A stretch of DNA of 64,000 bases from Streptosporangiales bacterium (GTDB lineage Bacteria; Actinomycetota; Actinomycetes; Streptosporangiales; WHST01). Below, piece by piece: positions 8,339 through 38,610 of the stretch; within the stretch, counting starts at the first letter, position 1; each line of letters begins with the position of its first letter. Both the position numbers and the translations under genes were made by a program. The stretch spans positions 62,001 to 126,000 of the forward strand of contig WHTA01000002.1 of the NCBI GenBank assembly GCA_009379825.1, given 5' to 3'. Below the pieces are notes generated by a model, which made no database searches, was not told the origin of the DNA, and saw only the letters and a program-made list of their open reading frames with translations.

Positions 8339-9556
8339 TCAGCGGCTGCGGCGGGGTTCTGCCCGCCGCGACAGCGAGTCGAGCAGCACGGCGATCACCA
8401 ACACCAGCCCGGTGACCATGAACTTGACCGGCGCGCTCACGCTGAGCAGGTCGAGGCCGTTGCCGATGGACCCGATGACGAGCATGCCGAGCAGCGCGGC
8501 CCACACGCTGCCGCGCCCGCCGAACAGGCTGGTGCCGCCGATGACCGCCGCCGCGATCGCGTAGAGCAGCACCTCACCACTGCCGCTGCTCTGCGTCACC
8601 GCCGTGAGCCTGCTTGCGGCGAGGATGCCGCCGACCGCGGCCAGCCCGGACGAGATGGTGAACGCCGCGATCCGAACCGCGTCCACCCTGATGCCGGCAC
8701 GCCGTGCGGCCTCGATGTTTCCGCCGACGGCGAACAGGTGCCTGCCGAACGCCGTCCGGCGGAGCACGAACGCGCATGCCACGATGATCACCAGGTAGAC
8801 CAGCATGACCATCGGCACGCCGCGGTCGGCGTTGAGCACGATGACCACCAGGCCCAGCACCACGGCGAGCCCGACGACCTGTACGGCCAGCAGCGCCACG
8901 CTGCCGGCCGGCAGGTCGGCGCGGGTGCGCGCGTACCTGCGCGTGAACTGCACCGCGGCGAAACCGGCCACGCAGACGGCCGCGAACGCCCAGCCGTAGG
9001 CGGGCACGAAGAACTGCTCGGTGAGCGCGTTGACGGGGCCGTCCGGCAGGTTGATCGAACCACCCTGGCCGAGCACGTACAGCTGCAGGCCCTGCCAGCC
9101 GAGTAGCCCGGCGAGCGTGACGACGAACGCCGGCATCCGCAGCTTCGTGAACAGCACACCGTGGATCAGCCCGATCAGCACGCCGGTCAGCACCGCCGCC
9201 ACCACCGAGGCGAGGTCGCCCATGCCGTAACGGGTGATGGAGACCGCGAGGACGGCCGCCGTGACACCGCTCACCGACCCGACCGACAGGTCGATCTCAC
9301 CGAGCAGCAGCACGAACGTGACGCCGACGGCCATCGTGCCGATCGCCGCGATCTGCAGCATCAGGTTGGTGATGTTGACGGCCGTGAGGAAGCGCTCGTT
9401 GAGGATGGTGAAGACGATCCAGGTGACGACCAGCCCGATGATCACCGGCAGCGAACCGAGGTTGCCTGCGCTCAGCCGCCGACCGGCCGCGGTGACGTAC
9501 CCGCTCAGCGAGCTCTCCGGCTCGACCAGGCGAGGGTCCCGTTCGATCGTGCTCAT
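8339..9556 (-). CDS. Sugar ABC transporter permease (RbsC/XylH type)
   Basis: A 405-residue protein starting at ATG 9556, which overlaps the stop of the ATPase gene as ATGA. It has about ten membrane segments and the conserved [14 protein letters not shown] and [18 protein letters not shown] loops of branched ribose/xylose-type permeases (BPD_transp_2). It is the membrane channel of the importer encoded with 9553-10362 and 10429-11553. It ends 6 bases from the LOG gene, with which it converges. The sugar is not determined by sequence; the length and the binding protein fit xylose-type systems. Confidence 0.93.
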
Positions 9557-10362
9557 GAGCGTTCTCCTCCCGCCGTCGAGGCGTCCGCCGAGTGTTCCGC
9601 AGTGGCCTCCGCGAGCGCGGCGTCCAGGCGTTCCTTGGTGGCCCCGGTGATCGCCGCCACCACGTCCGCGTTGCGTGCGTCGGCAGCGCGGAACGAGCCG
9701 CCGTTGCCGCCCAGCCTGAGCACCTCGATCCGGTCGGCCACGGCGAACACGTCGGCCAGGTTGTGGCTGATCAGGAGTACGGCGAGGCCGCGCTCGCGCA
9801 GCCGGGTGACCAGCTGCAGCACCTGTGCGGTCTGTGCGACGCCGAGGGCAGCGGTGGGCTCGTCCAACAGCACGACCCGCGGCTCGCCGATCAGCGACCT
9901 GGCGATGGCGACCGACTGCCGCTGGCCGCCGGACAGTGACGCCACCCGGGTACGTACGGAAGGGATGCTGACGGAGAGCTGGGCGAGCAGGCCGTGCGCC
10001 TGCTTCTCCATGGCGACCTCGTCGAGCCGGCGCAGCCGTAGCGGCTCGTTGCCGAGGAACAGGTTCGCGACGACGTCGAGGTTGTCGCACAGCGCGAGGT
10101 CCTGGTACACGGTGGCGATGCCGAGGCCGGTCGCCTGCTGCGGGGTGGTGATCCGCGCGGGATGACCGCCGATCTCTATGCTGCCCGCGTCGAACGGCTG
10201 CACCCCGGCGAGACCCTTGATCAGCGTGGACTTGCCGGCACCGTTGTCGCCGACCAGCGCGACGACCTCGCCGCCGTGCACGTCGAGGTCGACGTCGCGC
10301 AGGGCCTGGACCGCGCCGAAGTGTTTCTCTGCACCGCTTACCCGCAGGACTGGGTCACTCAT
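9553..10362 (-). CDS. Sugar ABC transporter ATP-binding protein, single cassette
   Basis: A 269-residue protein with Walker A (GDNGAGKST), Q-loop (TVYQDLALCDN), signature (LSGGQRQSVAIARSL), Walker B (VVLLDEPTAALG) and the H-loop (LLISHNLADV). Ribose/xylose importers normally carry a fused double cassette of about 500 residues; this is a single-cassette form, also common in actinobacteria, and would act as a homodimer. It lies between the binding-protein and permease genes and overlaps the latter by four bases. Confidence 0.93.
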   Translation of the reverse strand: MSDPVLRVSGAEKHFGAVQALRDVDLDVHGGEVVALVGDNGAGKSTLIKGLAGVQPFDAGSIEIGGHPARITTPQQATGLGIATVYQDLALCDNLDVVANLFLGNEPLRLRRLDEVAMEKQAHGLLAQLSVSIPSVRTRVASLSGGQRQSVAIARSLIGEPRVVLLDEPTAALGVAQTAQVLQLVTRLRERGLAVLLISHNLADVFAVADRIEVLRLGGNGGSFRAADARNADVVAAITGATKERLDAALAEATAEHSADASTAGGERS

Positions 10363-10386
10363 CGAAATCCTCCACGGTGGTGGATG

Positions 10387-10422
10387 CGCCGTCGACCCCG
10401 CGCCGGCACGGGATCGACGGCG
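10387..10422 (-). terminator. Intercistronic stem-loop between binding protein and ATPase
   Basis: CGCCGTCGACCCCG (10387-10400) pairs with 10409-10422; the single mismatch becomes a G-U pair in the minus-strand transcript, giving a 14-bp stem with an 8-base loop. It lies in the 66 bases between the binding-protein stop and the ATPase start. Such structures commonly end or stabilise the upstream message so that the binding protein is made in excess over the membrane parts. Confidence 0.7.
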
Positions 10423-10428
10423 AACCGG

Positions 10429-11553
10429 TCAGTCTCGGGCTTCGATCCCGTGCTTCTTGCACGCCGCCTCGTACTTGCCGGCGCAGAGCTGCTCGTAGGT
10501 GACCCACTCGTCCTTCAGCACCGTGTCTTCCAGGTCGTCGGCGGTGACCGCCTGCACCGGGAGGAAGGTGGAAGGGATCTTCGCCTCACCGTTGTCGGTG
10601 TCGGCTTCCTTCTTCGGGGTCTTGCCCTGCAGCAGGTCGTACGCGATCTCCGCCGCCTTGGCGGCCTCGTCCTTGATCGGCTTGTAGATCGTCATGTACT
10701 GCTCGCCGGCCACGACCCGCTGCAGCCCGGCGACCTCGGCGTCCTGGCCGGTGACTGGGACCTGCTCGAGGTCCATGTCCGCCTTGCGCATGGCGGCGAT
10801 GGCACCGCCTGCCGTGCCGTCGTTGGCCGCGTAGACGCCGACGATCTTGTCCTTGCCGAGCGCGGTGATCGCCTGGTCCATCTGCTTCTGCGCGTTGTCC
10901 GGGCTCCACTCCGGGGTGTCGTACTCCTTGCCGATCTTCACCTTGCCGTCGAGTACGGAGTGCGCGCCCTGCTTGAAGAGCTTCGCGTTGTTGTCCGTGG
11001 GGGAGCCGTTGATCATCACGATCTGGCCCTTCTTCCTGGTGCCGAGCTCGTCCAGCCTGGCCACCAGTGACTTCGCCTGCTCCTCGCCGACCTTCACGTT
11101 GTCGAACGAGATGTACCAGTCGGGCTCCGAGCCGAGGATCAGCCGCTCGTACGAGAGCACGGGCACGTTCTGGCCCTTGGCCTTGTCCACGATCTTGGCC
11201 GCCGCCTCACTGTCGACCGGGTCGAGGACGAGGACGTCGGCACCGTTGGTGAGCGCCGCATCGGCTTGCTGCTGCTGGAGATCGGCGCTCTGCGTGGCGT
11301 TCTTGTAGTCGATCTTGCAGTCCGGGCAGAGCTCCTTCATCCGCTGCTCGAAGAACGGCCGGTCCGCCGCCTCGTAACGCGCGGTCTTGTTCTCCGGCAA
11401 CAGCAACGCGATGCGACCGGACTTCTTGCCTTCCCTGGTCTTTCCTTCGTTGGCCTCCTCCTCGCCGCTCTGCGTTGCGCCGCAAGCGCTCGCGCCGAAC
11501 AGCGCGAGTGCGGCGAACGCGGCGAGCAGCCGTGACCTGCCAGACGTCGCCAT
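10429..11553 (-). CDS. Sugar ABC transporter substrate-binding lipoprotein
   Basis: A 374-residue protein from ATG 11553, with GGAGG upstream. A basic N-terminus and hydrophobic stretch (LLAAFAALALFGASAC) end in a lipobox-like cysteine. The mature part is a periplasmic-binding-protein type 1 fold of the xylose-binding (XylF/ChvE) kind: NGADVLVLDPVDSEAAAKIV, SYERLILGS, GVYAANDGTAGGAIAA, VPVTGQDAEVAGLQRV. It is anchored outside the membrane and delivers sugar to the permease. Downstream genes encode the ATPase and the permease; lacI lies 28 bases upstream. Confidence 0.93.
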   Translation of the reverse strand: MATSGRSRLLAAFAALALFGASACGATQSGEEEANEGKTREGKKSGRIALLLPENKTARYEAADRPFFEQRMKELCPDCKIDYKNATQSADLQQQQADAALTNGADVLVLDPVDSEAAAKIVDKAKGQNVPVLSYERLILGSEPDWYISFDNVKVGEEQAKSLVARLDELGTRKKGQIVMINGSPTDNNAKLFKQGAHSVLDGKVKIGKEYDTPEWSPDNAQKQMDQAITALGKDKIVGVYAANDGTAGGAIAAMRKADMDLEQVPVTGQDAEVAGLQRVVAGEQYMTIYKPIKDEAAKAAEIAYDLLQGKTPKKEADTDNGEAKIPSTFLPVQAVTADDLEDTVLKDEWVTYEQLCAGKYEAACKKHGIEARD

Positions 11554-28345: not shown

Positions 28346-30820
28346 TTACCCGACGCCGAAGCACACGAAACCGAGCGTTCCGGTGCTCGTGCCGGCGTCG
28401 GCGAGCGCCTGGCCGGGCGGACTGCCGGCCGCGAGGAGCCGGTGGAAGCGCGTCATGACGGCGTGCGTCTCGTCGTCCGCGACCGGCGTGACGCTGGCGA
28501 CCAGCGTGGTGGTGCCGAGCGCGAAGAACGCGGCCGCCACGCCCTGCAGCTCGTCGCCGGCGTGCACGGCGGACAGCGCGGTGTCGCACGACGACAGCAC
28601 GAGCCGGCGCGGGGCCACCTCCAGGTGTTCGAGGTCGTAGACGGTGACCGGCCCGTCCGCCAGGTCGAGAGCAGAGAACTGCGGGTTGTCGGAACGGAAC
28701 GTCCCGTGCGCCGCGATGTGTGCGACGTCGGCGCGGTCGAGCGCGCCGAGCGCGGCCGAGACGGTCGCCCTGCGACCGGTGAACTGCCTGGCCCGTTGGT
28801 AGTGCCGTGCCACCATCCGTGCCTCGCGCGGGGCGTGTTCCAGCCCGGGGCCGGCCAGCACCACGGCGCCGCGCCTGCGCGCCCGCCTGCGGGTGCCGCG
28901 CGCCGCGGACAGCCACATGGTCGCCGACGGCGCCACGGACAGCGGCCGGTCGCGCAGGTTCGGCAGGGCGCTCCACGGCAGCGCGTGCAGCGCGCCGGTC
29001 GGGGTGAGGACCACCTCGCGGTCGCCGATGTACGGCAGCAGCGGGCCGAGCAGCAGTGTGTCCAGCCGGCCCGCGGCGTGCGCGACGCCGGCCTCGGCGG
29101 CCGCGAGGCTCGCCCGCGAGCCGTGCCGCCTGGCGAGCCGGTGCAGGGCGAACCGCAGCGCGTCCATCTCCGCCGTCGCCTCGGTCAGCGTGCAGAGCTC
29201 GTGCAGCCGGCACCTGCCCGCCACCACGGTGACCGCGACGAGCGCGCCGTCGTACTCGGTGAGCTCGACCAGCGCCCGGTCGCCGAGCTGCGCCTGCAGC
29301 TCACCGCGATCGAGGGTCGTCGACGTGCCCTGGCCGCCTGGCCCGCTTGCGATCCGGCTGCGGTCGCGGATGGCGCGCTCCAGCCGCACCTGCTCGGCGG
29401 CGAGCTTCGGCGACACGACGCCACGTGCGGAGCTGGCGGCGAGCTCCGCGGTGACCCTACGCAGGTGCGCGAGGTCGGCGGCCAGCCGGCCGTCGTGCGG
29501 TGGTCGTACCGGCGGACGACGCAGGGCGTTGGCCCGCCACCTTTCGACCCAGGTGAGGTAGTGCCAGGCGTCACCGGCCCGCTTGGTCAGCTGCACGCCC
29601 AACGTGGCGAGGTCCTCGCCCCAGCCGCTCGCCCTGACCCGGAGGTCGGTGGCGCCAAGCGTGGCGGCGAACTCGTCCACGGCACGCAGGCCGGCCCTGG
29701 CGGCACGCAGGGCGCCGCCGACGTCGTCGTCGACGAGGCGGCGCAGCGCCGTGGCGTACCAGGCGGGCGCGCGTACCGCGATCGGCCCGCGCTGCCTCGC
29801 GTGGCTGGCCCGGTCGAGCTCGGTGCGGGCGATCCTCGTGTGCCCGAGCCGGCGGGCGAGGTCGCCGGCCAGCACGTGGCTGTGCACGGCGGCGTGCGCC
29901 CAGCCGCGCCGGCGCAGCTGGCCGGCCGACCGGCGGAGCTGGTCGAGCAGCCCGCGGTCCGCCTCGCCCCGGTCGACCCGGGCGTGGAGCGCGAGGTGGT
30001 GGGCGAGCGACGTCCATCCGGGGCGGCGCTGTTGCCGGAACTGGGCGGCCGCGCCGGTGGCGACCCTGGCCGCGGCGTCCGGGTCCTTGTCCAGCAGGTG
30101 CAGCCGGGCGAGCAGCACCTCCGCCTCGGGCACGTCCACGGCGAAGCCACCGGCGGCGAGTGCCTCGATCGCCTCCTCGAGCTTCTCCCTGGCCTCGTGG
30201 ACGAGCCGTCCGGTGAGGTACGCCTCGGCGACGTCGAGCAGGCTGGACGCCTCGACGCTGCCGGCCGGCAGCCACTGCTCGGCCGCCGCGAACGACCGCA
30301 ACGCGGCGGGGAGGTCGCCGGAGCGCAGCTCGACGAAGCCCAGGTTGTGCTTGGTGCGGAACGCGTAGATGTCCAGCCGGTTGTCGGTGGCGAGCTGGTG
30401 TGCCACCTGCAGGTCGCGGCGGGCGGCCGGGTAGTGCCCGAGATAGCCGAGGACGGCGGCGCGGTTGGAGAGCACCCGGCACGTCCACTCCGCGTCGCCG
30501 CCCGGCCGCAGCAACCGCAGCGCGCGGTCGTAGTCGCGGAGCGCTTCGGCGTACCTGCCCGCTCGGCTCAGCGCCAGCGCGCGCTGGGTCTCCAGCTGAC
30601 CGAGCTCGACGCCGTGCAGCGCCGGCCGTGCCGCCCGCGCCGCGGCGAGCGCATCGGGCAGCCGGCCGAGGTCGGCGAGCACCGGCACCAGGCTCAACCG
30701 CGCCTGCGCCGCCCGTCGCTGCGAGCCGGCCAGGTCGGCGTGCTCGATGGCGTCGCGCAACAGCCGTTCAGCCTGCCGCGCGTCGCCGCGCAGCCTGCTC
30801 TCCAGGGCGAGCACGCGCAA
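28346..30820 (-). CDS. TPR-CHAT protease (caspase-like)
   Basis: The first standard start is TTG 30820 (824 residues), but coding-like sequence continues upstream to about 30955 (IAEQPDFIERAEAARDAV), so the real protein is probably 45-50 residues longer and starts at a non-standard codon (ATA 30955 or CTG 30967). Residues 1 to about 400 are alpha-helical TPR-like repeats (NRAAVLGYLGHYPAARRDLQ, RTKHNLGFVELRSGDLPAAL). The C-terminal third is a CHAT peptidase: H705 in VAHIAAHGTF and C745 in LVLSSCDTALS form the dyad, flanked by GALHALPWSALPNL. It is the last gene of an operon with a subtilase, a sigma factor and a 150-residue protein. Confidence 0.88.
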   Translation of the reverse strand: MRVLALESRLRGDARQAERLLRDAIEHADLAGSQRRAAQARLSLVPVLADLGRLPDALAAARAARPALHGVELGQLETQRALALSRAGRYAEALRDYDRALRLLRPGGDAEWTCRVLSNRAAVLGYLGHYPAARRDLQVAHQLATDNRLDIYAFRTKHNLGFVELRSGDLPAALRSFAAAEQWLPAGSVEASSLLDVAEAYLTGRLVHEAREKLEEAIEALAAGGFAVDVPEAEVLLARLHLLDKDPDAAARVATGAAAQFRQQRRPGWTSLAHHLALHARVDRGEADRGLLDQLRRSAGQLRRRGWAHAAVHSHVLAGDLARRLGHTRIARTELDRASHARQRGPIAVRAPAWYATALRRLVDDDVGGALRAARAGLRAVDEFAATLGATDLRVRASGWGEDLATLGVQLTKRAGDAWHYLTWVERWRANALRRPPVRPPHDGRLAADLAHLRRVTAELAASSARGVVSPKLAAEQVRLERAIRDRSRIASGPGGQGTSTTLDRGELQAQLGDRALVELTEYDGALVAVTVVAGRCRLHELCTLTEATAEMDALRFALHRLARRHGSRASLAAAEAGVAHAAGRLDTLLLGPLLPYIGDREVVLTPTGALHALPWSALPNLRDRPLSVAPSATMWLSAARGTRRRARRRGAVVLAGPGLEHAPREARMVARHYQRARQFTGRRATVSAALGALDRADVAHIAAHGTFRSDNPQFSALDLADGPVTVYDLEHLEVAPRRLVLSSCDTALSAVHAGDELQGVAAAFFALGTTTLVASVTPVADDETHAVMTRFHRLLAAGSPPGQALADAGTSTGTLGFVCFGVG

Positions 30821-30951
30821 CGCGATCGACCTGGCCTCGGCGTCGTCGCAGGCGTCGAGGATGGCCGTCGCCTCTGCACGTGCCTGGTCCGGGTCGACCG
30901 AGACCGCGTCCCTGGCCGCCTCCGCTCGCTCGATGAAGTCGGGTTGCTCCG

Positions 30952-31404
30952 CTATATCGACACCCAGCTCGTCGCCACCCGGCGCGCGGGGTCGGTCAGC
31001 TGACAGACCATGCTCACCAGGCCGGCGGGTACGGACACGACGCTGAACCGGCCGAGCTGGTCGGTGGTCACCGTGCTGGCGCCGCCGTCCCAGTGCACGT
31101 CGATCTCCGCCGGTTGCGGCGGGACGAGCTGGCCGAGCAGCCGGCGGCGCGCCCCGTCGTCGGCGACCTCCACCTCGATGGACAGCTCGCCCGCGGTGAA
31201 CGTCAGCAGCCGCGGGCCGGTGGCCGGCCGGGTACGCACGCCGCTGTCGGCGAGCACCGAGTCGGCGGCCAGCTCGGCCAGCTCCGCGTCCACGTCGCGG
31301 AGGGCGAGGCCCGCCACGGCCGCCTCGTACGCGGCCAACGGCACCGGGTCGACCGCGTCGAAGGCCGAGCCGAGGCGCGCCAACACTGCTTCCTCACCGC
31401 TCAT
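30952..31404 (-). CDS. Conserved-type protein with C-terminal beta-domain, operon partner of sigma and CHAT
   Basis: A 150-residue protein whose start overlaps the sigma gene by 11 bases and whose TAG overlaps the presumed CHAT start, so translation is probably coupled at both ends. The N-terminal half is helical and acidic (LRDVDAELAELAADSVL). The C-terminal part (TVTTDQLGRFSVVSVPAGLV) has the T-D-x-x-G-x-F ... P-x-G pattern of carboxypeptidase-regulatory-like beta-sandwiches. No signal peptide or membrane helix is seen. It may be an anti-sigma factor, adaptor or substrate in this module; none of these is shown by sequence. Confidence 0.75.
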   Translation of the reverse strand: MSGEEAVLARLGSAFDAVDPVPLAAYEAAVAGLALRDVDAELAELAADSVLADSGVRTRPATGPRLLTFTAGELSIEVEVADDGARRRLLGQLVPPQPAEIDVHWDGGASTVTTDQLGRFSVVSVPAGLVSMVCQLTDPARRVATSWVSI

Positions 31405-31972
31405 CGTCGTCCCCCTCCAACAACTGACGCAGGTGTTTCAGACAGCGACCCCGGGTGGGACCGAGGCTGCCGACGGGCATGTCCAGCTCCGCGGCGACCT
31501 CGGCGTAGCTCGTCGTGGGGCTGGCGGAGAGCACCCGCAGCAGGCGCTGACAGCGATCGGACAGTTGCACGAACGCGCGCAGTACGCCGCGGTGCTCCTC
31601 GGAGAGGAGCAGCGCGGCTTCGGGGGTGTCGAGGTCGGTCGCGGACTGGTCGAGACCGTGGTCCTCCACCGGCCGCTCCCTGGCGCCGCGGCGGGAGACC
31701 CGGATCGCCTCGTGGCGGGCCGTGGCCACCAACCAGCCGCCGACGGCTGCCGGGTCGCGGAGGCGGCCCAGGTGCTCGACCAGCCGCAGCCAGGTGGTCT
31801 GGTAGACGTCGGCGGCGTCCATCCGGCCGAGGCCCTGCGCTCGGGCGACCGACCAGACCAGCGGCGAGAACCGGTCGACCAGCTGTCGCCAGGCCTCGGT
31901 GTCGCCCTCACCGGCGAGCTCGAGCAAGGTGGTGTTGCACGGCTCGCCGGTGCGCGGGTATGTGCGTTCCAC
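31394..31972 (-). CDS. ECF-like sigma-70 factor
   Basis: A 192-residue protein from GTG 31972 with GGGAGG 6 bases upstream. Region 2 is VDRFSPLVWSVARAQGLGRM, then DAADVYQTTWLRLVEHLGRL with the D-x-x-Q core-binding pattern; region 4 is LSDRCQRLLRVLSASPTTSY, then AEVAAELDMPVGSLGPTRGR as the recognition HTH. Regions 1 and 3 are absent, as in ECF factors. It is encoded 39 bases after the S8 protease gene and overlaps the next gene. No zinc-binding anti-sigma gene is adjacent, so its control must differ from the common anti-sigma type. Confidence 0.9.
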   Translation of the reverse strand: MERTYPRTGEPCNTTLLELAGEGDTEAWRQLVDRFSPLVWSVARAQGLGRMDAADVYQTTWLRLVEHLGRLRDPAAVGGWLVATARHEAIRVSRRGARERPVEDHGLDQSATDLDTPEAALLLSEEHRGVLRAFVQLSDRCQRLLRVLSASPTTSYAEVAAELDMPVGSLGPTRGRCLKHLRQLLEGDDDER

Positions 31973-32011
31973 ACGTACCTCCCGCCGGGCCGAACATCGA
32001 CACCGGTGAGA

Positions 32012-33196
32012 TTACCTGGTACGGCGCGGCTCCAACACCGCGAGGCCGAGGTCGGGGACGTAGCTGTGCTTGCTCGGGTCGAGCAGGATGCGGGCCGCCT
32101 CGGGTGCGTCCACCCCCTGCTTCGCGCAGATCCCGGCGATCGCGCCGGCGACCTGGGGCGCCGCGAACGAGGTGCCGCTCCAGTCGGCGTAGCCGAGGAA
32201 CAGGTCCTCGTCGGTGTCGCCGGCGCCGGTGTCCACGTCCGGGCCGTTGAACCAGACGAAGCTGCTGCTGACGTCCTGGCCGGGCGCGCACGCGTCCACC
32301 CAGAAGCCGTGGTTGCTGAAGTGCGCGGGCTCGCCGCCGGCCTCCTCGAGCGCACCGACGGCGATGACCGAGTTGGCTGCGGCGGGCCAGAACGGCCGCT
32401 CGGTGCCCTGGTTGCCGGCGGCCGCGACGACGACGGTCTTCGGGCCGAGCGCGTGCAGCGCCTCGAGGAGTAGGGGAGAGGGACGGTCGTCGTGGGTGTA
32501 GCCGCCGAGCGAGAGGTTCAGCACGTCGATGCCGCCGGACTTCCGCGGCCGCAGGTCCGCGATCGCCTTGATCAGCTCGAGCTCGTCGCAGACGCCGTCG
32601 CTGGAGAGCACCCGTACCGGCGTGACGTGGGCGTCCGGCGCGCGGTGGAGCAGCAGGCCGGTGACGAACGTGCCGTGGCCGGCCTGGCTGTCGAGCTCGA
32701 AGTCGAGGTCGGCGTCGTACTCCTCGGCGTTCGCCGGCCCGCAGTCGGCGAACCAGTCGCGGTCGGTGAACCACGGGTGTGCGGAGATGCCGGTGTCGAG
32801 TACGGCTGCGGTGGCGTGCTTGGCCCCGGGGGACGGCGCACGCGGTGGGCGCGGCTTGCGCGACGGCTGGGTGGGCGGACCGCTCGGGCCGCCGTTCCAC
32901 GCCGGCTCCCCGGTGTAGATGAGGTTCGGCGCCACGCGGGCGTACGGCTCCAGGTCGGCGGTCACCTTGCGCAGGTCGACCCTGGCGCGCTTATTCAGGC
33001 GGATACGTACGATGCCCGCGCCGCGGACGTCCTCGCTGCTGTCCACCCACTTGCGGAGACGGTCGTCCACGACGGTGGCGGCATGCTTGCGACTGCACAA
33101 CAACTCGTGCTTCTTCGCCAGGGCATGGCCTTCGTCGTCGAGCACGATGGCACCGTGGCGGCGGCTGATCCGGTTGGGGCGCTCGGGGTCACTCAT
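32012..33196 (-). CDS. Subtilase (S8) serine peptidase without signal peptide
   Basis: A 394-residue protein from ATG 33196 (GAGGAG upstream). Catalytic D134 (AAVLDTGISAHP), H174 (GHGTFVTGLL), oxyanion N262 (AAAGNQG) and S343 (WSGTSFAAPQVAGA) are all present. Residues 1 to about 100 (SRRHGAIVLDDEGHALAKKH ...) form a separate domain, possibly an inhibitory prodomain, followed by a Pro/Arg-rich linker. No secretion signal or membrane helix is visible, so it should act in the cytosol. First gene of the operon that also encodes the sigma factor, the 150-residue protein and the CHAT protease. Confidence 0.9.
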   Translation of the reverse strand: MSDPERPNRISRRHGAIVLDDEGHALAKKHELLCSRKHAATVVDDRLRKWVDSSEDVRGAGIVRIRLNKRARVDLRKVTADLEPYARVAPNLIYTGEPAWNGGPSGPPTQPSRKPRPPRAPSPGAKHATAAVLDTGISAHPWFTDRDWFADCGPANAEEYDADLDFELDSQAGHGTFVTGLLLHRAPDAHVTPVRVLSSDGVCDELELIKAIADLRPRKSGGIDVLNLSLGGYTHDDRPSPLLLEALHALGPKTVVVAAAGNQGTERPFWPAAANSVIAVGALEEAGGEPAHFSNHGFWVDACAPGQDVSSSFVWFNGPDVDTGAGDTDEDLFLGYADWSGTSFAAPQVAGAIAGICAKQGVDAPEAARILLDPSKHSYVPDLGLAVLEPRRTR

Positions 33197-33539
33197 CCGG
33201 CTGTATCTCCTCACACAGTTGGTACCCGTTCGGGGAGGGTACGAGGGGCCGTGCGCCCCCGCTGGCACGGCCCCTCGCGTTTGCCGGCCCCGGATGCCTG
33301 GGCGCGTGTGCAGCGCCTCGAGCATCGGCAGCCCCCGGCCGGCCTGACACGACAGGTCGGTGTGTGTATGCCGTGTCATCGAGACGGAGTTGCCGCGGTG
33401 GGCTCAGATACATCGGACGGGGGATCGGTCATGACACGGACGCAGAGTGTCGACGCGCTGCCGCACCGTGGCGGTGTCTCCGGGAACGGCTGCCGACGTC
33501 GCTCTGCCTGCTGATGGTCGCCGGCCCTCGGGCAGGTGT
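33197..33539. other. 343-base gap, control region of the S8-sigma-CHAT operon
   Basis: No gene is supportable here. It lies after the MFS gene (minus strand, ending 33540) and before the S8 gene (starting 33196). It holds a strong hairpin (33242-33277) and, closer to the start, a TACCC/GGGTA inverted repeat. The promoter of the protease-sigma operon must lie here, but no -10/-35 pair could be assigned with confidence. Confidence 0.6.
33242..33277. terminator. 13-bp perfect hairpin upstream of the S8 gene
   Basis: CGAGGGGCCGTGC (33242-33254) pairs perfectly with 33265-33277 around a 10-base loop. On the minus strand it lies 46 bases before the S8 start codon and about 260 bases after the MFS stop. 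It could end read-through from the MFS gene or act as an attenuator in the operon leader. Confidence 0.6.
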
Positions 33540-36138: not shown

Positions 36139-37655
36139 GGCGCGGGGAGCCGGAGCTCGCGGCTGCCACGAACACCGGCGCGCCTGTGCCTGACCCGGTG
36201 GACGCGGTGGCCGTGCCACCGCGCAGGCTGAGCGCGCGCAGCCTGATCGTCGACCCGTTCAGGCGGCTCGGTGCGTTCCTGCTGCCGGTGACCGTCGCGT
36301 TCCTGCTGTCCGGCCACTTCACCGTCGACCGTGCCGCGTTCTACGGGCTCGGCGCCGGGCTGCTGTCCGTCGTCTACTCGGCGGTGCGGTGGCTGACGTT
36401 CCGCTACACCGTCCGCTACGGCCGGCTCGACATCACCTCCGGTCTGCTGCACCGCAGGTCGCGGTCGATCCCGCTGGACCGGATCCGGGGCGTGGACGTC
36501 GCCGCGTCGCCGCTGCACCGGCTGCTGCGGGTCGTCGTGGTGCGCGTGGACGCGGCGGCCGGCGGCAGCGGTCAGGTGGACGAGGGCGTGCTCGACGCGG
36601 TGAGCGTCGCGGAAGGCACGCGGCTGCGGCGGCTGCTGCTTGCGCGGCGGCCCGCGGGCGGCGCCGAGGCGACCGCAGGGGGTGCGGCCACGACCGGTGA
36701 CGTGCTGGCGAAGGTGAAGGCGTCGTGGTTCCTGTACTCACCGCTGACCGGTGCGTACCTGTTCGCCCCGCTGGCCGTGCTCGGCACCGTGTGGGGCTGG
36801 GCCGGGCAGGAACCGTTCAGCGAGCGGCGGGTGATCGGGTGGGCGGAGTGGCTGGCCGGCGACCCGTGGTTGCTCGGGCTCACCGCCGGCTGTCTGCTCC
36901 TGCTCGGCCTGCCGGTCGCGTCGATCGCCGTGACGACGGTGTTGAACTGGGGCTTCACCGTGCGGAGCACCCCGGACGCGCTCAACCTGCAGCGCGGGCT
37001 GCTCACCCGCAGGCACGTGACGCTCGAACGGCGCCGGGTGCGCGGCTGGGAGCTGGTGGAGGCGCTGCCGGCCAGGCCGACGCACAGCGGCCGGCTGCTC
37101 GCCCTGGTCACCGGCCTCAGCGGGCGCTCCCGCGCCGAGCTGCTCCCCGTCGGGCCGGTCGCCGCCATCCGGCTGCTCGCCGGGCAGACCGTCGGCTCGG
37201 TGCCCGGCCCGCTGCGCCGGCACCCGCGGGCCGCGCGGCGGCGACGGCTGTTCCGGGCCGTGGTGCCGTGGCTGCTGGTTACCGGGCTGACCGGCTGGGG
37301 CGGGCAGTTCGGCGCCGCCGCGGTGGCTGCCGTGCTGGCCGTGGTCGGGGTGCCGCTGGCGCTCGACAGGTACCGCTCGCTCGGGCACGCCTACGCGGAC
37401 GGGTTCCTGTGTGTCCGCAGCGGCTCCTGGTCCAGGCGGACCGTCCTGGTGCAGCAGCAGGCCGTGGTCGGGTGGCAGGTGCGGCAGACGTTCTTCCAGC
37501 GCCGGCAGGGCCTCGCCACGCTGGTCGTCGGGGTAGGCGCGGGCAGCGGCGGGTATCGGGCGGTGGACATGGACGCCCGCGCCGCAGGCGAGCTCGCACG
37601 CCAGGTCACGCCGCGCTGGGTGGAGCCGTTCCTGGCGGCGGAGGAGCGTTCCTAG
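36135..37655 (+). CDS. Membrane protein with repeated PH domains (YdbT-like)
   Basis: A 506-residue protein from GTG 36135, translationally coupled to the short PH protein. Three bPH2 modules are visible: YGRLDITSGLLHRRSRSIPL, then STPDALNLQRGLLTRRHVTL, then ADGFLCVRSGSWSRRTVLVQ, each after a pair of hydrophobic helices. Together the two proteins probably form a membrane complex; the function is not established. Its stop overlaps that of sepH, which is encoded on the other strand. Confidence 0.87.
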   Translation: MRRGEPELAAATNTGAPVPDPVDAVAVPPRRLSARSLIVDPFRRLGAFLLPVTVAFLLSGHFTVDRAAFYGLGAGLLSVVYSAVRWLTFRYTVRYGRLDITSGLLHRRSRSIPLDRIRGVDVAASPLHRLLRVVVVRVDAAAGGSGQVDEGVLDAVSVAEGTRLRRLLLARRPAGGAEATAGGAATTGDVLAKVKASWFLYSPLTGAYLFAPLAVLGTVWGWAGQEPFSERRVIGWAEWLAGDPWLLGLTAGCLLLLGLPVASIAVTTVLNWGFTVRSTPDALNLQRGLLTRRHVTLERRRVRGWELVEALPARPTHSGRLLALVTGLSGRSRAELLPVGPVAAIRLLAGQTVGSVPGPLRRHPRAARRRRLFRAVVPWLLVTGLTGWGGQFGAAAVAAVLAVVGVPLALDRYRSLGHAYADGFLCVRSGSWSRRTVLVQQQAVVGWQVRQTFFQRRQGLATLVVGVGAGSGGYRAVDMDARAAGELARQVTPRWVEPFLAAEERS

Positions 37656-38485
37656 TCGCGCTGCCTGCGGGTGCCGAAGATGATCTCGTCCCAGGACGGC
37701 ACCGACGCGCGCTTGGAGCTCTTGTTGTTGTTCTGCTGGCTGGCGATCCGCAGCGGCTCGGTGGTCTGCTCGTCCTGGCTCAGCGGCTCCTGGGTGGGGA
37801 CGCTCACCGTCGGGGCCGCGTCGGCGCCGCCGCTGACGGCGGCCAGCCGCGGCCGCTCGATGACCTCCTCAGGCTCCGGCTCGGCTTCTGCCTGCAGGTG
37901 TGCAGAGCCGTTCGCGCTGACCAGGGTCGCCGCCTCGTCGTCGACCGGGCGTACGTGCCTGGCCGAGACGTCGTAGATCCACTCGGCGGCGCCGGTGCGG
38001 TTCGCCATCTTGTAGTGCAGGCGCACCTTCCAGCTGCCGTCGTCGCGCCGCCACGCGTCCCACTCCTGGTCCTCGGGAGCCACCCCGCGCGCCTGCAACC
38101 GCTGGCGCACCAGCTCACCGAGCTCGGGTCCCGGCTGCGACTCGCCGGGCCGGCGCACGGCGGTACGTTGCGCCACCTCGGCGATGTGCATGCGTTCACG
38201 GATCACCGGGGTCGCGAACGCCTCGATGCGCTCGAGCGGCAACCCGGCGGCGCTCGCCACCTCTTCCGGGCTCTGGCCGCCGCGAATACGTGCTTGAATC
38301 TCCTTCGGGCGCACCGTGGTCTCCATCTGCGTCTCTGGCCGCCCGCTACGCTCGTGGTCGCCTCGGACGGCTGCCCGGACACGTCCGTCGATGGGTACGC
38401 GGAAGTGGGCGCCTGTCGCGTCGGGGGCGGCGAGGAGCAGGAACTCCCCGTCGTCGCTGATCCCGACCAGGCGCAACTCCTGCAT
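37652..38485 (-). CDS. sepH: Cell division protein SepH (DUF3071)
   Basis: A 277-residue protein from ATG 38485 with GGAGG 5 bases upstream. The N-terminal DUF3071 domain (MQELRLVGISDDGEFLLLAA) contains the HTH-like IQARIRGGQSPEEVASAAGL, then LPLERIEAFATPVIRERMHI. The C-terminal half is low-complexity and ends with the conserved SVPSWDEIIFGTRR box. Known SepH binds FtsZ and promotes Z-ring assembly in actinobacteria. It is divergent from the transglycosylase gene; GTAGTCGACTAC (38501-38512), a 12-bp palindrome, lies just upstream. Confidence 0.93.
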   Translation of the reverse strand: MQELRLVGISDDGEFLLLAAPDATGAHFRVPIDGRVRAAVRGDHERSGRPETQMETTVRPKEIQARIRGGQSPEEVASAAGLPLERIEAFATPVIRERMHIAEVAQRTAVRRPGESQPGPELGELVRQRLQARGVAPEDQEWDAWRRDDGSWKVRLHYKMANRTGAAEWIYDVSARHVRPVDDEAATLVSANGSAHLQAEAEPEPEEVIERPRLAAVSGGADAAPTVSVPTQEPLSQDEQTTEPLRIASQQNNNKSSKRASVPSWDEIIFGTRRQRD

Positions 38486-38610
38486 ACTGGCCTCCGGACG
38501 GTAGTCGACTACGAGTAGCAGTCTCTCTGGTCTGTCTCGCCCACTACTACAACCGCGCCCGGCGAGTCGCAAAGTCGACAAACCGATGCAGTGCCAGGGG
38601 GTGAACGCCG

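Follow-up and report, generated by a model that had tools for sequence, protein, structure and literature searches.

In type III-E CRISPR (clustered regularly interspaced short palindromic repeat) loci the protease Csx29 cuts the sigma inhibitor Csx30 (PMC10028731), and in Myxococcus xanthus the anti-sigma factor DdvA, whose solved structure has a CHAT domain (PDB 8rot, 8rw5), holds the extracytoplasmic function (ECF) sigma factor DdvS (PMC4374960), so that there are two precedents tying CHAT proteins to the control of ECF sigma factors. A further point of comparison is the sigma factor group ECF54, to which a review of non-canonical ECF sigma factors ascribes conserved carboxypeptidase, subtilase, and CHAT neighbours, and for which it proposes control by proteolysis in place of an anti-sigma factor (PMC8999054). 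We describe here a four-gene locus that fits this group, at positions 28346-33196 of a 64,000-nucleotide stretch of contig WHTA01000002.1 (the window) from an actinobacterium of the order Streptosporangiales. It encodes an S8 subtilase, an ECF sigma factor, a small protein, and a tetratricopeptide repeat (TPR)-CHAT protease. The small protein belongs to a family whose longer members have anti-sigma-domain-like N-termini, and an anti-sigma-like protein therefore appears to be present in the operon. We give an even chance to a mechanism in which the small protein restrains the sigma factor, and the TPR-CHAT protease, alone or together with the S8 protease, cuts the small protein upon a signal and so frees the sigma factor. 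The features of the locus are as follows, with pLDDT denoting the predicted local distance difference test score of a model.

32012..33196, minus strand: S8 subtilase, 394 residues, ATG start with GAGGAG upstream; Peptidase_S8 match at 7e-29; triad invariant in relatives
32795-32797 (D134), 32675-32677 (H174), and 32168-32170 (S343), minus strand: S8 catalytic residues
31394..31972, minus strand: ECF sigma factor, 192 residues, GTG start; Sigma70_r2 match at 2e-11; TIGR02937 at 69 bits; alignment A3
30952..31404, minus strand: small protein, 150 residues, ATG start; AlphaFold2 model at pLDDT 87; family A2; homology to long forms with anti-sigma-domain-like N-termini
28346..30970, minus strand: TPR-CHAT cysteine protease, about 820-870 residues, ending at 28346; CHAT match at 7e-35 with TPR matches; AlphaFold2 model at pLDDT 88
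28706-28708 (His) and 28586-28588 (Cys), minus strand: CHAT dyad codons

All four genes lie on the minus strand, as the initial annotation had described, all but the small gene with clear Pfam support, and judged from the sequence layout they form an operon. The spacing of 39 nucleotides between the S8 and sigma genes and the overlap of 11 nucleotides between the sigma and small-protein genes likewise agree with it. A transmembrane-like stretch is found in none of the four proteins, all of which look cytosolic and soluble, and neighbourhood scans of relatives place the co-location of the four genes far beyond chance.

The sigma and small-protein genes form a rigid core, and the proteases are inverted, divergent, or encoded elsewhere in many loci. 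The small gene shares the strand of the sigma gene in all 128 cases, compared with 67 of 105 for CHAT and 70 of 85 for S8. Of the 60 loci with enough flanking sequence, 53 have the small gene directly beside the sigma gene, 37 have CHAT in the vicinity, and 35 have S8. Some genomes encode an S8/CHAT pair separately from the sigma/small-protein pair (L293, L294, L299, and L300). Where sigma/small-protein loci lack proteases their neighbours are mostly unrelated genes, and in G178, G222, G249, and G102 an S8/CHAT pair is located at another place in the genome. Two arrays (L185, G157:C7; L186, G413:C77) contain two S8/CHAT sets, a sigma gene, and several copies of the small gene, which at L186 number three, one per protease set and one for the sigma factor. 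The small protein thus pairs both with the sigma core and with the protease sets, and is common to both halves of the system. No natural fusions among the four proteins were seen in about 170 loci.

The small protein is present in 47 of 61 related genomes, and its family in 325 of the 347 genomes of the order, a near-universality which argues for a core function rather than anti-phage defense. Across the phylum it is found in 46 of 396 genomes, and a scan with the sigma factor yielded 80 named loci in Acidimicrobiia, Solirubrobacter, Amycolatopsis, Dactylosporangium, Jiangella, Nocardioides, Streptomyces, and others. Within the phylum sample the sigma factor occurs in all 34 CHAT-positive genomes and in 45 of the 46 that are positive for the small protein, which is itself found in 31 of the 34 with CHAT (Fisher p of 1e-31 to 1e-47, values that ignore shared ancestry, for a pattern that covers many families).

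The properties of the small protein are central to this interpretation. Its AlphaFold2 model has two N-terminal helices followed by a nine-stranded immunoglobulin/transthyretin-like β-sandwich. It has no sequence match to any solved structure, Pfam returns only a sub-threshold CarboxypepD_reg match, and structure searches find generic sandwiches (best Z of 9, to CrdA) with no anti-sigma or Csx30 chain among the matches listed, an outcome that is uninformative either way. Long forms of about 190-250 residues occupy the same gene position in a distant family of the phylum (f21) and in G222, and share this sandwich at their C-terminal end (hhalign 97%, 122 columns). The N-terminal part of these long forms, for example FxRLVDWVEGRLPEEEARAVEEQVAxAD...WLRxF...PPPEVRxxLxxRF, resembles an anti-sigma domain without zinc ligands. 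Nine of the 12 long homologues match the NCBIfam 'antisigma' model (NF052375, best 5e-5), four match zf-HC2, and two match RskA_N, all under the curated cut-offs. When compared with true zf-HC2 anti-sigma domains taken from related genomes, the long N-terminus scores 24-32 over approximately 65 columns, with decoys reaching no more than 15.6 and shuffled sequences no more than 14.8. Long homologues at the same locus position therefore appear to have an anti-sigma-domain-like N-terminus, by matches that all lie below curated cut-offs. The window-type protein retains the PP-helix and the sandwich, and we read it as a reduced member of this anti-sigma-like family. The initial annotation held that no ordinary anti-sigma gene is present, which is half right: the short form has no detectable anti-sigma domain, but the gene that encodes it belongs to an anti-sigma-like family.

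These observations bear directly on ECF54. The window sigma factor has a sigma2 region and a sigma4-like C-terminus (GSLGPTRGRCLKHLR) and is of the ECF type, its TIGR02937 score being well above the cut-off of 42.9 bits. As in the published group, it is accompanied by subtilase, CHAT, and 'carboxypeptidase' neighbours (PMC8999054), the last in the form of a sub-threshold CarboxypepD_reg match, which is seen in 13 of 32 small proteins. The assignment is by gene context and ECF-type sigma factor. The model protein of the group is SFT86700.1 of Geodermatophilus amargosae. The 'carboxypeptidase' of ECF54 is probably the CarboxypepD_reg-like sandwich of the small protein and would be non-enzymatic; a catalytic carboxypeptidase identity for the small protein is ruled out by its immunoglobulin/transthyretin-like model and the match of the long form to NOMO2. 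The published group is described as lacking an anti-sigma factor, whereas the window locus has a protein of an anti-sigma-like family, and because homologues of this protein in the same place have anti-sigma-like N-termini, that part of the description may not hold for this gene set. The matches of the long homologues to anti-sigma models run counter to it, although the short form in the window shows no such match.

The catalytic residues of both proteases are intact, as had been annotated, and are also invariant in relatives. The S8 domain has the Asp-His-Ser triad expected of a subtilase, conserved in 22-23 of 23 aligned relatives (one row is gapped at the Asp). The CHAT protein has the dyad and TPR superhelix of a clan CD TPR-CHAT protease, and its His and Cys, at H705 and C745 counted from the TTG codon described below (H755 and C795 in P0004), are invariant in 38 of 38 aligned relatives. 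Genes that are rarely neighbours elsewhere and catalytic residues absent from most homologues had been named in advance as outcomes that would count against the proposed association, and both matters came out in its favor. The predicted TPR-CHAT structure aligns over both its TPR and CHAT parts with Csx29 chains (Z of 21-24) and also aligns with separases, and DdvA is among its strongest Foldseek matches; DdvA is also the only CHAT protein among the best 60 matches of a sequence-profile search. The TPR part resembles the ligand- and peptide-sensing regulators MalT, Rap, and AimR in structure matches, which suits a sensor role, although TPR matches are common.

Comparison with the described systems reveals both shared and distinct features. 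With Csx29, Csx30, and CASP-sigma (Craspase) the window locus shares a TPR-CHAT protease together with an ECF sigma factor and a partner protein for the latter, and the predicted CHAT fold is similar to that of Csx29. However, the window CHAT protein scores 12.4 bits with the Csx29 family model NF041237, far below the cut-off of 300, the small protein matches no solved structure by sequence, an S8 protease is added, and there is no Cas family, Cas7-11 included, among the nine adjacent genes scanned by Pfam, with no search made for a CRISPR array. The suggestion that a Csx29-like logic operates here without CRISPR thus gains from the conserved association, the match of the CHAT model to Csx29, and the anti-sigma-like N-termini of the homologues, but the locus type itself was already known as ECF54. 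The resemblance to DdvS and DdvA lies in an ECF sigma factor that here, too, would be under the control of a protein with a CHAT domain, but DdvA is a single transmembrane protein, whereas the anti-sigma-like and TPR-CHAT parts in the window are separate and soluble-looking proteins. The proposed logic, in which proteolysis of an inhibitor would free a sigma factor, is also that of RseA/DegS and RsiW, but the window operon has no membrane anti-sigma factor or site-2 protease and its products look cytosolic.

The mechanism that we favor would proceed as follows. The small protein would keep the co-translated ECF sigma factor inactive, and the TPR-CHAT protein would act as a sensor-protease, with its TPR superhelix binding a signal, either peptide or protein. 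Signal binding would activate the His-Cys dyad, which would then cut the small protein, with the S8 protease acting in the same step or completing it, and the released sigma factor would transcribe its regulon, probably including this operon. Sigma binding, small-protein cleavage, the order of the proteases, the signal, and the regulon are all components that we infer; the evidence behind them is the conservation of the four genes as a set, the intact catalytic residues of both proteases, the co-occurrence across genomes, the strict pairing of sigma factor and small protein, the homology of the small protein, and the resemblance to Csx29 and DdvA. Several results weigh against this mechanism. 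The window-type short protein has, from its sequence, lost most of the anti-sigma-like region: its N-terminal profile score of 13.6 equals that of controls (hhalign), and anti-sigma models match none of the 32 short forms, including the window type. Even the long N-terminus scores 17.4 against an RsrA-like subset alone, which is under the shuffled sequences at 20.6. No cleavage site was predicted, and coevolution analysis of 160 sigma/small-protein pairs, underpowered at an effective sequence number (Neff) of 129, gave no clustered inter-protein signal. In addition, two loci (L064 and L067) have S8, small protein, and CHAT genes with no sigma gene nearby, and together with the arrays these indicate that the small protein also accompanies proteases alone.

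Some of the same observations lend themselves to other interpretations. The published proposal for ECF54, drawn from its carboxypeptidase, subtilase, and CHAT neighbours (PMC8999054), is that the proteases degrade the sigma factor itself and keep its level low, as ClpXP does for AntA, with the small protein serving as an adaptor or being unrelated to inhibition. The sigma-less loci suit a protease adaptor, but homologues of the small protein in the same position bear anti-sigma-like N-termini, and the small gene remains beside the sigma gene in the many cases where the protease genes do not; we consider direct degradation of the sigma factor unlikely. Reduction of the short form could also mean that in this lineage its anti-sigma function disappeared along with the N-terminal domain, leaving a protein that is mainly a substrate, inhibitor, or scaffold for S8 and CHAT and whose link to the sigma factor is simple co-expression. 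The absence of a detectable anti-sigma domain and the retention of the small protein beside proteases at the sigma-less loci and in the arrays both fit such a role, which nonetheless seems quite improbable to us, as no other partner is tied so strictly to the sigma factor by position and strand, and sigma/small-protein pairs persist without nearby proteases.

A different arrangement would make the proteases outputs of the switch rather than inputs to it. The small protein would restrain the sigma factor until some other cue released it, and the sigma factor would then turn on CHAT and S8, whose targets would be others, be it for the turnover of proteins, for development, or for cell death. As might be expected of regulon members, the two protease genes are often divergent from the sigma gene or distant from it. 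CHAT proteases can be effectors, and BovA-type defense models give weak matches. The near-universal presence in the order is unlike that of a variable defense or killing system, however, and the arrays give each protease set its own copy of the small protein, which suits a substrate or regulator; we doubt that the proteases are outputs. As for anti-phage defense as such, no PADLOC system fits the locus, which yields just weak subtilase, IetS, and BovA matches, and viral contigs gave no match to the small protein.

One junction in the operon departs from the initial annotation. The CHAT frame is open across the small gene, and the coupled stop and start described there are not borne out, with no ATG, GTG, or TTG nearby; the first such codon is TTG at 30820, which lies 131 nucleotides beyond the small-protein stop (30952) and within the first TPR. 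Homologues often begin at a GTG or ATG located at -8 to +20 of the small-gene stop, and a non-canonical CHAT start or a sequence error is therefore possible in the window. An inverted repeat, GTACCC-N9-GGGTAC, at 33222-33242, just 5' of the S8 ribosome-binding site, is a candidate operator. The search for promoter motifs 5' of the S8 or sigma genes gave no conserved motif, the comparison being swamped by related genomes.

The nine scanned neighbours encode MFS, TetR, DUF2752, rhodanese, phosphodiesterase, PH domain, DUF5998, and DUF3071 proteins, and one product without a match. The DUF3071 gene (37655-38581) is approximately 4.5 kb from the operon, and one is also found near the sigma/small-protein pair of Jiangella muralis (L092:6137-7357), which may be coincidence. 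The genome of the window encodes another such sigma factor (191 bits; L290, G000:C14:85603-86112), within 8 kb of which no gene for a small protein, S8, or CHAT could be recognised. At three loci (L083, L105, and L129) related sigma genes without a small protein are followed by genes for large proteins with an AAA-ATPase-like N-terminus, as judged by eye, and these are perhaps another control partner. At L147 the sigma/small-protein pair is directly followed (9058-11490) by a gene for an 810-residue protein in which the CHAT domain is N-terminal and a CBM9-like domain C-terminal, so that another CHAT architecture occupies this slot.

The locus type and the proposal of proteolytic control were already known (PMC8999054). 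What is new is that the partner family is anti-sigma-like, that the 'carboxypeptidase' label has a likely source, that the system divides into two sub-modules, and that it is nearly universal within an order. Tentatively, and with more doubt than conviction, we suggest that the locus is a widespread actinobacterial version of the Csx29-Csx30-sigma switch that works without CRISPR and is present almost throughout one order. Two soluble proteases, CHAT and S8, would together control the ECF sigma factor by way of a reduced anti-sigma protein, in which only the last helices of the anti-sigma domain would be left beside a β-sandwich. If so, the CRISPR system would have taken up a protease-sigma module of more ancient type, and if the small protein, labelled 'carboxypeptidase', is the hidden anti-sigma factor of ECF54, a switch open to testing can be proposed for this group. 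TPR-CHAT control of sigma factors would then be a common bacterial device and not a CRISPR oddity, and Csx29, DdvA, and ECF54 would be joined in one theme.

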